Below, one piece after another: positions 2,825-13,483 of a stretch of DNA of 64,000 bases. Both the position numbers and the translations under genes were made by a program. The stretch is taken from NCBI GenBank assembly GCA_947476535.1, contig CANJRC010000004.1:1-64000 (forward strand). Reading direction: 5' to 3'. How positions within the stretch are numbered: position 1 is the first letter of the stretch; each line of letters begins with the position of its first letter. Under the pieces are notes generated by a model. That model saw only the letters and a program-made list of their open reading frames with translations. It had not been told where the DNA came from and made no database searches. The DNA comes from Betaproteobacteria bacterium. Lineage in GTDB: Bacteria > Pseudomonadota > Gammaproteobacteria > Burkholderiales > SG8-39.

Positions 2825-3829
2825 ATGAAAAATCTCACAGTTTCGGCAGTCTCGCTACGGCTGTTGTCCGTCGCAAATCTGCTCTGCGTGGCGCTCACGC
2901 TGGCAGGCCTTGCGCCGCCCGCCATGGCGCAGGAGTACCCCTTGCGCCCCATCACCATGATCTTCCCGTTCCCGCCGGGCGGTTCCGGCGACACCGCCTC
3001 GCGCGCCATCGCCGCCGACATGGCCAAGACGCTCAAGCAACCGGTGATCATCGAGAACCGCGCCGGCGGCGGCGGCATGCAGGGCGCGCTGGCGGTGTAA
3101 AATGGCAGGCCCGACGGTTACCTCGTCTCCTACCTGCACATCGGCATCGCCGTGATTCGACCGAGCGCCGATGCGAGCTTCGCCTTCGAGCCCGCCCGCG
3201 ATTACGCTCCGGTCGCGCTTACCTGGGAAGTGTGGTCCTCCATCGTCGCCAACCCCAACGCGCCGTTTCGCGACATGAAGGGGTTGATCGCCTATGCGCG
3301 CGCCAACCCCGGCAAGCTCAACATGGCGGTGGGCGGCGTGGGGTCGGTGGACCACGTCACTGGCAACCTTCTCAAGCAGGCGGCCGGCATCGACTTCCAG
3401 CTCATTCCGCACAATGGCGCGGCGCCCGCGACAGCGGCCGTGCTGGGCGGCCACATCGAGACCGCCATGCTCGCCATCAACCTCGAACCCCAGGCGGCCT
3501 CGGGCAAGCTCCTCCGCCTTGCCACCGCGTCGCCCAAGCGCCTAGCGGAAGCTCCCGAGTGGCCGACGGTGGCCGAATCCGGTGTGCCAGGCTTTGCCGG
3601 CGTCACCAGCTGGGTGGGCGTATTCGCCGCGCCCGGCACGCCGCGCGACATCATCATGAAGCTCAACGGCGCCATCAACGCGGCACTGAACGACCCGGCG
3701 ACGCGCGCCCGCGTACAGAACGTGGGCGCCCCCACCGGCGGCACGCCCGAGCAGGCGCTTGCCAAGGTGCACGAAGACCTTGCCAGCGCCGGGCCGGTCA
3801 TCCGCAAGCTGGGCCTCAAGTTCGAATAG
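2825..3829 (+). pseudogene. Bug/TctC-type periplasmic receptor interrupted by an in-frame TAA
   Basis: Two open stretches, 2825-3100 and 3152-3829, lie in the same frame and together match one tripartite-tricarboxylate-type receptor of about 334 residues. The protein runs from a signal peptide (ending near APPAMAQE) through FPFPPGGSGDTASRA and VIIENRAGGGG to DGYLVSYLH and the C-terminal KLGLKFE. The only break is TAA at 3098-3100, at the spot where relatives read V-A-x-A-x-PDGYT. A single substitution would explain it, since there is no frameshift. It is a young pseudogene, a read-through case or a base-call error. Because the codon is TAA, selenocysteine is excluded. It lies in the operon between the dehydratase and the amidohydrolase and would have fed this pathway. 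Confidence 0.8.
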
Positions 3830-5179: not shown

Positions 5180-6271
5180 CTAGCCGAAATCCAAGTCCGG
5201 GTGGGCGGTTCTAGCGGATTCCGGGATGCCGGGCAGGTGGACCGCCCGCGTGCTTGGGTGACAGTCATTCAATCCGGTAAAACTCGGGATGACGACTGAC
5301 CAACCAGCGCCATGACCACCGGCCGTTGTCACAAGCACATGTTCAGGCGCCGCCGTGAGCATGCGGCCATCCGAACCCATGGGGGAAAAGTGCCGGCTCG
5401 CGCGGTCGACTTCAATCCCCGCGGCGCTCACATCGGCTTTGGTCACTTTGGACAACTCGCTCAATCGCCGGCTGATGTCGGAGGGCATCAAGCCACCGGA
5501 CGCAAGCACGTCGGCATGTTCGGGCCCCAGCACGATCATGTAGGCCGAGGCTCGGCCGGTGGTGTTCTTGGAGGGATCCTTCATGGCCGTCGCCAGCGTG
5601 TGCATCAGTTCATCGGGTGATGGGTTCCAACGATGCACGATCTGGCGCGGCGCACCGGCAGGCAGGACTGTCACCGTGGTGGTGTCGCTATGGAACCCAA
5701 GTTGCTCTCGCACCGACAGCCATGGTTTGGGTGGCACGCGCTCGGCAAAATGAAAGCTGTACTTCCCGCCATGCCCGAATGCGCTAGCATCGAGTTCCTG
5801 TGCGTTGGCCTTGAGCATGGCTGCCGCACCCAGGCGGATGGCGCGCCCGATGGTCGCGTTGGCCCGGTTACCAGGGCCGAGTGCTCCCCGGCCCGCATTC
5901 ATGCCGATGGACTCGGCATAGGGTCCGGATACGATCGCGGCAATGGCAGCGCCTCCCGTAGATGTCAGGGCCGAGTGCACATTCACCCGTTCGTCGAACA
6001 GCGCCTCCCATGTCGCGAGCACCACAGGAAAGTACGCGGGCTTGCAACCTGCCATCACCGCGCAGGCTGCTGCCTGCCAGACCTGTACAGAAAGATCTCG
6101 ACCGGACACCGTTCCGATCATTTCATCCGGACCGCGAATGCCTGTCGATACCATCGCATCGATTGCGGCGGGGGTTGCCGGAATGGCCGGCAAGCCATCC
6201 GACCATGGCTGCTCCCACAACGCATGGATGGCACTTTCGAACGACTCTGCAGTTACGACTTTGTGCGACAC
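5180..6271 (-). CDS. Stand-alone homologue of the C-terminal domain of the UGSC selenoprotein
   Basis: The product has 363 residues with no signal peptide or membrane segment. I do not recognise a named function. It aligns clearly with the C-terminal half of the selenoprotein at 11615-13384. Shared blocks are WSDGLP (here residues 23-28), VMAGC[KR]PxYxPV with a conserved Cys at 76, a VSG near residue 115, and RANA[TA]IGR at about 135. It lacks the UGSC domain itself. The start ATG at 6271 is the first in frame. It is transcribed away from the solute-binding protein at 6425, with a 10-bp tandem repeat in the shared upstream region. A role in the same process as the selenoprotein is an inference from homology and proximity. 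Confidence 0.75.
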   Translation of the reverse strand: MSHKVVTAESFESAIHALWEQPWSDGLPAIPATPAAIDAMVSTGIRGPDEMIGTVSGRDLSVQVWQAAACAVMAGCKPAYFPVVLATWEALFDERVNVHSALTSTGGAAIAAIVSGPYAESIGMNAGRGALGPGNRANATIGRAIRLGAAAMLKANAQELDASAFGHGGKYSFHFAERVPPKPWLSVREQLGFHSDTTTVTVLPAGAPRQIVHRWNPSPDELMHTLATAMKDPSKNTTGRASAYMIVLGPEHADVLASGGLMPSDISRRLSELSKVTKADVSAAGIEVDRASRHFSPMGSDGRMLTAAPEHVLVTTAGGHGAGWSVVIPSFTGLNDCHPSTRAVHLPGIPESARTAHPDLDFG

Positions 6272-11614: not shown

Positions 11615-13384
11615 TCACGCAAATATCCCTGATCTTTGGATACGCTCTCTCCATCGCTCGGGCATCTCTACGCGCTTTGCCGTCGGCGGCGCATGCTCAT
11701 GGTTGTTGATGTAGATGCGTGCCTGGTTGCGCTCCGGGTCGCCCGCCAGCACGATATTGGTCCACTCGGGCTTCAAGAGCATCGGCACCATTCGCTCCGG
11801 GTCGTCGGATTCAGCATACAGGGCCGGTGCGGCGCCGCGCTTGACGATGTCGGCGAGCTTCCATTCCTGGCCCATGGCGTGTAGCGGATAGTGCTCGAGC
11901 CACCGTGCCTTGTACTTGGCGTGCTCGAAGAGGTATTGGCGCACTTCCTTTTTTCCCCAACCGTGCTTTTTGAACCCTTCGGCGATGGCCGGGCTCATCT
12001 GCACCAGCGGGTGGTAGCGCGAGAACATCATGGCCGTGTAATTGAACGGCCCCGCCGTGCCCTGCAGGTATTCCACCAGCGGACCCATCATGGTCACCGG
12101 GTCGGTGCCGCCCATGTATACGGGTGAGCTGAGCGCCACCACGCTTTGCACCATCACTACGTTGTCGTCCATGCCGAATCCGAGATCCACGCGCACCGGG
12201 TCCCAGCCCAGCGCGCGCACGGCGGCTTCGTTCTCTCCCATCGCCATGTAGAAATTCGCGCCGATGCTGCCCTTGTCGGTGCTGCCCTGCCGGAAGCCCG
12301 CCACGTTGCGGATGTAGAGGCGCAGAAAGCGCCCGATCGCCGCATTGGCGCGCCGGCCGATGCGCATGTTGCCGGTGCCGGTGTTGAAGCCCAGCGCTTC
12401 CACGATCTCGCCGCTCACCACCGCCAGCGGCTCCCAGCCCGGCGTGCAGCCGGCGTCCTCCAGCTTGAAGGCCGGGTCGGCGATGGCCTCCACCATGGCC
12501 AATAGCACCGGCATGTATTCGGGGCGGCAGCCGGCCATGACGCCGTTCACGGCTACTGACCACACCGTGGCTTCGCGGAACTCCGGCGGCAGGATGCCGA
12601 TGACCTCGGCGGGATCGCGATTCGTCCAGGTGAGGAACTCGGCCACCGCGTCCAGCGTGGGCGGCACGAAGGGTAGGCCGTCCGACCATTCGCGTGCCTC
12701 GAAGTAGTCCTGCACCGCATTGAGCGTGCCGCTGAAGACGGTATCGCGCGTGTCGGGCTCGCCCGTTGGTGGCGATGCGGATGGCGATGCGGATTGCGTT
12801 GGTGCGGTGGCACCGGCATCCGATGTGAGAACGTCCACCACGCCGGGCAGCACCTTGTTCCACACCTTGTCGGCCAGTTCGTCCGATGAATCGAGCGGGA
12901 TGTTGCCGGGGTAGGGCACGATGCCCATGTCGGGTGCGCCCATGGCGCGCGCTGTGGCCTTGGCCTGGCTCATGAAGCCGCTGGCGATCACCGCCACGCC
13001 AGGCACGCCGGACTCTTCGGCGATTTTCGTGGCCCGCAACACGGCGGGCGTGCAGCTTCCTCAGGCGCCGACGCCGACGATGACGGCATCCAGCCGGGCC
13101 TCCTTCAGCCGCTGGGGCAGCGCGGCGAGCACTTCGCGCTCATCATGCCCGTGCACATTGCCGAAGTGCTCGTAGGACACGAAGGTGGAGCCCGGGTACT
13201 TCTCGGCGAGTCCTGCTTGTAGCAAGGGGAACATGTCATTGCCACGGAACATGTAGTCCCAGATGAAGCCGATGCGCTTGGCTGCATGGTCAGTCTCTCC
13301 GCTGCCGAAGCGCCGGTTCATGGCCATGTCCTTCACTGCGCGCCTCGCCAGCGGCCACAGTACGTCGTACTTCGGTTCACTCAT
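11615..13384 (-). CDS. UGSC-type selenoprotein fused to a second conserved domain
   Basis: Reading through one TGA at 13061-13063 joins two open stretches in the same frame into a 589-residue protein. The TGA is residue 108 and is followed by Gly-Ser-Cys, giving U-G-S-C. This redox-type motif is conserved in a family that, as I recall, NCBI names UGSC family (seleno)protein, in which Sec can be replaced by Cys. Residues 1-187 form that domain: strands before and after are VIVGVGA and GVPGVAVIASGF. Residues 188-213 are a Ser/Pro/Ala linker. Residues 214-589 match the stand-alone protein at 5180-6271, with WSDGLP at 233-238 and VMAGCRP with Cys286. Similarity continuing on both sides of the TGA argues against a nonsense mutation. 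The start ATG has AAGGGA upstream. Function is unknown. selA, selB, selC and selD are not in the window. Confidence 0.85.
13032..13049 (-). promoter_or_regulatory. Candidate bacterial SECIS hairpin
   Basis: On the coding strand GCCCGC and GCGGGC form six GC pairs around the loop CGUGUU. Seventeen bases separate the TGA from the first loop base, inside the range known for bacterial SECIS elements, and the loop carries a GU step of the kind SelB recognises in other bacteria. The stem does not extend cleanly further outward. Confidence 0.6.
13061..13063 (-). other. In-frame TGA predicted to encode selenocysteine
   Basis: This is the only stop codon in an otherwise open 590-codon frame. It is followed directly by GGA AGC TGC (Gly-Ser-Cys), so the product carries a U-x-x-C pair three residues apart. 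Confidence 0.85.
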
Positions 13385-13483
13385 GTTTTGTCCCTTGCGC
13401 GTGTCGGTTGCCGCGCAAAGACTACCAGCACTGCGCCCGGCCCGTCATAATGGCGTGGACATCACATCTTGGAGGAGGACGCT

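Follow-up and report, generated by a model that had tools for sequence, protein, structure and literature searches.

Organization of the locus

The window, that is, the whole stretch of 64,000 nucleotides analyzed here, belongs to a 4.1-Mb metagenome-assembled genome (MAG) of a freshwater bacterium, distributed over 204 contigs and 87% complete, the closest named relatives of which are betaproteobacterial MAGs. On the minus strand of the window, positions 11615-13384 form a single frame of 589 codons that ends in a TGA stop and is interrupted solely by another TGA, at positions 13061-13063. An earlier note on this DNA had proposed that two minus-strand ORFs share a frame broken only by this codon, and both points are borne out by the sequence: the ORFs of 107 aa (13061-13384) and 475 aa (11615-13042) are in the same frame, and from the ATG at 13384 onwards no other stop interrupts this frame until the terminal one. 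The codons directly 3' of the TGA are GGA AGC TGC, the Gly-Ser-Cys of the earlier description, and the TGA-GGA-AGC-TGC string corresponds to the UGSC motif, which homologues carry with Cys in place of selenocysteine (Sec). The hairpin reported to begin 11 nt past the TGA is present as a GCCCGC/GCGGGC stem (13032-13049), and protein similarity does extend to both sides of the codon, since the Pfam UGSC family (PF24696) matches residues 8-187 of the joined protein with 83.1 bits, well above its gathering cut-off of 25 bits, versus 21.8 and 30.3 bits for the two halves. The locus very probably encodes one protein of 589 aa in which UGA108 is decoded as Sec. UGSC forms the N-terminal domain of this protein, and a second domain, here termed D2, makes up the C-terminal part, approximately residues 205-589. 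The features of the locus are as follows:

11615..13384, minus strand: predicted complete selenoprotein CDS, 589 aa, U108 (single open frame if the TGA is Sec; PF24696 match across the join)
13391..13396, minus strand: putative Shine-Dalgarno-like AAGGGA, 6 nt upstream of the ATG at 13384-13382 (from the sequence)
12824..13363, minus strand: UGSC domain, residues 8-187 (PF24696 match; coordinates of the match in the host genome)
13061..13063, minus strand: in-frame UGA, predicted Sec108 of the UGSC motif (sequence; Cys or Sec at the equivalent position of homologues)
13032..13049, minus strand: putative SECIS hairpin GCCCGC-CGUGUU-GCGGGC, 11 nt past the UGA (sequence; position-fixed test; pair counts)
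12722..12823, minus strand: linker between UGSC and D2, in part of low complexity and rich in Ser, Pro and Ala (sequence; low pLDDT over residues 189-238)
11669..12721, minus strand: D2 domain, partner of the 'Unknown_1' type (no Pfam, NCBIfam or PDB match; AlphaFold pLDDT 69, pTM 0.78)
5180..6271, minus strand: stand-alone D2 paralogue, with no UGSC partner found within the window (sequence comparison)

The last of these, about 30% identical to the D2 domain of the read-through protein, agrees with the previous observation that the second domain also occurs alone nearby. Elsewhere in the window, a gene for a TctC receptor (2825-3829, plus strand) carries an in-frame TAA at 3098-3100, which marks it as a pseudogene or a sequence error, unlike the TGA case.

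Probable decoding of the UGA codon as Sec

Of selA, selB, selC and selD, which the earlier note had named as genes to look for in the host, three are present. A selB gene (423.6 bits) and a partial selA (358 bits), cut by the contig end, both lie on contig C203, and selD (237.7 bits) is located on contig C1, but selC was not found in the 87%-complete host MAG (G000). Since selC, detected in seven relatives, lies downstream of selA wherever the match is good, its counterpart in the host would sit beyond the contig end that truncates selA. SelD forms part of a 755-aa protein (L166 2113-4377, minus strand), a size that would suit the known Ndh-SelD fusion, and a divergent UGSC gene with a UGNC motif (L113 3977-4471, minus strand; G004:C54) lies about 1 kb from selC and near selA.

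Cysteine at the position of residue 108, also anticipated in the earlier note, was found in homologues from beta- and alphaproteobacteria and from haloarchaea. The motifs at this site are DCGSC in genome G038, Roseovarius and haloarchaea, MCGSC in Variovorax SRS16, ACGSC in V. boronicumulans and HCSTC in genomes G020, G024 and G026. The TGA itself recurs at the Sec site of a 94%-identical gene (L024) and of most other UGSC genes, in several genera. Of the 22 UGSC matches in the host genome, 18 contain exactly one TGA, the site being identical in the copies examined, while Sec and Cys are both absent from three (contigs C16, C43 and C119) and the remaining one breaks off ahead of the site.

Folding energy alone did not set the window sequence apart from its synonymous recodings (p = 0.24), and this energy-only test was replaced by a position-fixed stem test with synonymous recoding as the null. 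With its position fixed, the window hairpin is stronger than 98.9% of recodings (p = 0.011), and 63 of 84 distinct TGA sequences reach p <= 0.05; in most of the 84, a stem places its loop at about nucleotide 24, counting from the U of UGA. In the commoner (larger) register, which comprises 23 sequences, 96.9% of cells are paired and 24 are double-changed, changes on both sides occur in six of seven pairs, and covariation amounts to 0.475 versus at most 0.152 for slid partners. The stem in the window's own register is 94% paired and shows little variation, with GC/GU/AU exchange at one pair. Cys homologues, used as a SECIS-negative control, provide only a partial contrast, because several retain a similar stem, which indicates that the protein sequence itself favours one. 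A search of the hairpin region against Rfam gave no score near a gathering cut-off.

Taken together, the sel genes, the Cys homologues, the conserved TGA and the hairpin evidence make Sec decoding very probable, and we assign the window gene to the selenoproteins with high confidence on these comparative grounds. This supports the reading of the earlier note, and none of the findings that it had named as contradicting that reading was encountered. The competing reading, in which translation truly ends at the TGA and the locus is a pair of genes or the result of a nonsense mutation or a faulty assembly, might appeal to the MAG origin of the sequence, to the TAA in the unrelated TctC gene of the same window and to the selC gene not seen in the host MAG. 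It is nevertheless highly improbable, given the identical TGA in the 94%-identical gene and in most UGSC genes across several genera, the Cys replacements at the Sec site, the SECIS covariation and the sel genes that are present; conservation, as judged from sequence comparison, refutes it in practice.

Automatic annotation had been predicted to split or truncate such genes, and instances of both were encountered: in Paracoccus ferrooxidans a UGSC gene appears in the annotation as two ORFs, and for the copy on a plasmid of Acidovorax sp. T1 the RefSeq annotation stops after the first 96 aa. Some UGSC genes are still overlooked or split by annotation pipelines. On the Paracoccus ferrooxidans plasmid (L137 7357-7926 and 12329-14104), UGSC is split at the TGA, and the D2 gene is followed, some 3 kb further downstream, by selB.

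The UGSC domain and its relation to PrdB

In addition to PF24696, the read-through protein matches NF041046, 'UGSC family (seleno)protein', with 57.8 bits (E 1.2e-15), below the curated equivalog cut-off of 125 bits, and by this score the window gene appears as a divergent fused subfamily relative to NF041046. Since 2008 UGSC has counted among the major selenoprotein families in metagenomes from aquatic sources. Any novelty read into the earlier note is unsupported. The UGSC family and, very probably, the present fusion had been described before: UGSC selenoproteins and a UGSC/'Unknown_1' fusion appear in Fig. S1A of the 2008 study by Zhang and Gladyshev (PMC2398784), and D2 is probably the 'Unknown_1' of that figure. 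A literature search of freely accessible main texts returned no report of a large UGSC expansion, of a relation to PrdB or of an association with D2, TrxB or TctC. The points new here are the PrdB relation, D2 as a near-constant partner, the TctC and TrxB-like neighbours, the paralogue expansion and the paralogues free of both Sec and Cys.

When a profile of 49 UGSC domains was compared with one of 13 PrdB-like proteins, hhalign gave a probability of 95.5 (E 1.5e-8) with the Sec/Cys columns superposed, over an alignable stretch of about 70 columns. The corresponding family models score far below their cut-offs, with 16.3 bits versus 300 for TIGR04483 (PrdB; E 0.005) and 13.8 versus 602 for TIGR01917. 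By the hhalign match, the UGSC domain is a remote relative of the part of D-proline reductase PrdB that bears the catalytic Sec. One of the 13 PrdB-like proteins is encoded by the host itself and has its TGA at the aligned site; this gene (L167 3439-4032, minus strand; G000:C8:16438-17031), with the motif PVUPRC, represents a second host selenoprotein family and adjoins a TctC receptor gene and genes resembling hydantoinase A/B subunits.

In an AlphaFold model of the full-length protein, built from the window protein and six helper sequences taken from the window and from other loci, the UGSC region (residues 31-194) is predicted to be Rossmann-like, with pLDDT of about 70-85, and U108 comes after a strand (100-106) and before a helix (111-124). 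The solved structures matching this model are generic alpha/beta folds, and no thioredoxin is found among the best 50 listed. The model thus disagrees with the thioredoxin-like fold put forward in 2008 (PMC2398784), although the fold match is not decisive. Neither the whole protein nor the profiles of UGSC and D2 found a meaningful relative when searched by sequence against the PDB.

The D2 domain

UGSC and D2 occur together, either fused or adjacent, in nearly all loci examined. Fifty D2 members were scanned without any Pfam or NCBIfam match, including any resemblance to the GrdE/PrdA families; D2 does not resemble PrdB either, and a profile search found no PDB relative by sequence. Its conserved positions include DGLP, PT, AG(C)xP, ANxxIGR, E and W, and the Cys among them is not universal, as some members have Gly or Ala at its position. 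The full-length AlphaFold model is poor over D2, whereas a model of D2 alone, built from only six sequences, is better (mean pLDDT 69.3, pTM 0.78). The best structural match of the latter in Foldseek/VIA comparisons was class I fumarase (Z 5.1; Foldseek rank 1, E 0.047), a likeness that was rejected because this Z value lies within the range of noise and unrelated folds. An in-frame TGA in another D2 gene (L117 3611-4618, minus strand) was considered as a Sec codon and also rejected, as it sits at a conserved Trp; it is probably a nonsense change or an error.

Paralogues, distribution and gene neighbourhood

The host genome contains 22 UGSC and 22 D2 matches. In four pairs the UGSC domains share 91-100% identity, which may reflect strain variation or recent duplication; allowing for these pairs and for the truncated copy, which probably continues one of their members, we estimate some 17-18 distinct UGSC genes. 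Congeners present 1, 7, 8, 14, 25 and 34 UGSC matches, almost all with a TGA in the congener with 34, and a genome from another family of the order presents 19, but in a broad sample of the class only five of 369 other genomes had any. The 22 matches in one MAG and 34 in a congener contrast with the 33 UGSC genes that a survey from 2016 (PMC5029168) recorded in 26 of more than 5,200 organisms. The genus carries an unusually large UGSC set, probably for the reductive breakdown of many small imported compounds. Searches of viral contigs revealed no relative and searches of E. coli genomes no match.

Five UGSC-D2 copies lack both Sec and Cys: three host paralogues, one congener copy and one Vibrio copy. 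They correspond to L043 3012-3521, L044 3777-4298, L045 2579-3100 and L118 4883-5380 (all minus strand) and to L165 5347-7032, on a plasmid of Vibrio europaeus; the site sequences across these loci are DAGVTQ, DQGVTQ, GAGGEGA and ADMGTS, which a redox model leaves unexplained. Because these paralogues keep both UGSC and D2, D2 may have a chemistry of its own.

Thirty of the 91 genes directly neighbouring UGSC encode TctC receptors, and eight encode Pyr_redox_2 flavoproteins. The TctC enrichment is given without a p-value since TctC genes are very abundant in these genomes, with at least 105 copies in the host. Seven betaproteobacterial loci (L094, L095, L102, L104, L106, L108 and L119) have a gene for a TrxB-like protein with a CxxC motif near UGSC-D2, as do annotated plasmids of Variovorax SRS16, Roseovarius THAF8, Haloterrigena and V. 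boronicumulans; none was found near the window locus. The Acidovorax sp. T1 copy is a fused, TGA-containing UGSC-D2 gene near IS1071 on an IncP conjugative plasmid (L159 7392-9000), and the Vibrio copy adjoins aconitase X genes.

Proposed function and alternatives

A redox function of UGSC-D2 is suggested by the U-x-x-C arrangement, and the PrdB relation and TrxB-like neighbours lend it support. By analogy with D-proline reductase PrdB and glycine reductase GrdB, we consider it close to an even chance that UGSC-D2 works as a reductase of that kind. In the proposed mechanism, a small acid or amide would be held between UGSC and D2, and Sec108, in the loop between strand and helix of the alpha/beta domain, would attack an activated carbon (C-N, C-S or C-halogen). 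The leaving group would then depart, Cys111 of the U-x-x-C motif would resolve the intermediate, and NAD(P)H would regenerate the Sec/Cys pair through a TrxB-like flavoprotein, dedicated to this purpose in some operons. The many paralogues, often encoded beside TctC/Bug solute receptors, would each serve a different substrate. The model as a whole, a Sec-decoded UGSC-D2 protein acting as a PrdB/GrdB-like reductase with substrate-diversified paralogues, is moderately favoured, in spite of several observations that weigh against it: the selC gene not found in the incomplete host MAG, a PrdB relation that is remote, covers about 70 columns and falls far below the NCBIfam cut-off, a D2 that resembles neither PrdB nor, in Pfam scans, any GrdE/PrdA family, five copies free of Sec and Cys that do not fit simply, no TrxB-like gene found near the window locus, and the small covariation in the hairpin register of the window.

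It is less likely, though worth weighing, that UGSC is an ordinary thiol/selenol-disulfide or peroxide redox protein with D2 as an accessory redox domain. The U-x-x-C motif and the TrxB-like neighbours would suit such a role, as would the thioredoxin-like fold suggested in 2008 and the statement, in the same source, that most selenoproteins without known function are thiol oxidoreductases (PMC2398784). The predicted Rossmann-like alpha/beta fold, with no thioredoxin among the best 50 solved structures, argues against it, as do PrdB being the nearest detected family, a D2 Cys that is Gly or Ala in some members, and the large set of paralogues beside solute receptors, which suggests substrate-specific enzymes. 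Rather unlikely, finally, is a scheme in which D2 is the main enzyme, for instance a lyase or hydratase of small acids, and UGSC binds the substrate or protects or activates D2, with Sec in an auxiliary role. Both domains are kept in the paralogues without Sec or Cys, solo D2 exists, the Vibrio copy lies beside aconitase X genes and D2 bears a weak likeness to class I fumarase, but the fold scores lie within the range seen for unrelated folds, and most members by far have retained Sec or Cys, costly as it is. Returning to the PrdB/GrdB-like reductase, a wider generalization is possible, if somewhat short of probable: UGSC-D2 may constitute a large, substrate-diversified and plasmid-mobile class for Sec-dependent reductive carbon-heteroatom cleavage, with electrons from TrxB-like proteins and substrates delivered by TctC, that is, an aerobic counterpart of the Stickland reductases combining a PrdB/GrdB-type Sec domain with a previously undescribed partner. 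Were these indeed reductive cleavage enzymes, they would offer a rich source of enzymes for breaking down compounds substituted with nitrogen, sulfur or halogen. The placement with PrdB/GrdB, the near-obligate partner domain and the likely electron donor make UGSC function directly testable.

Comparison with known systems

The window gene shares with the UGSC family and the Unknown_1 fusion, as depicted in the 2008 material cited above (PMC2398784), a Sec in the UGSC motif, a bacterial SECIS-type hairpin, an occurrence in aquatic bacteria and a conserved second domain that is also found solo. It departs from NF041046 in scoring less than half of that family's cut-off, and the data presented here favour a relation to PrdB/GrdB over the thioredoxin-like fold proposed for UGSC in that study. 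With PrdB and GrdB (TIGR04483, TIGR01917) it has in common the Sec/Cys at the aligned position, the UxxC motif, the alpha/beta region and TrxB-type electron donor genes near some loci, but UGSC stands far below the family cut-offs, aligns over a short stretch only and has D2 in the place of a detected GrdE/PrdA-like partner. UGSC genes also lie in what we take to be aerobic-type catabolic loci, unlike those of PrdB/GrdB. The FarB/FarE system, whose proposed fluoroacetate-reducing enzyme is a GrdB-like selenoprotein (PMC10838667), differs in domain architecture and organisms, but it offers a model for Sec-dependent reductive carbon-heteroatom cleavage within the GrdB superfamily by substrate-diversified paralogues.
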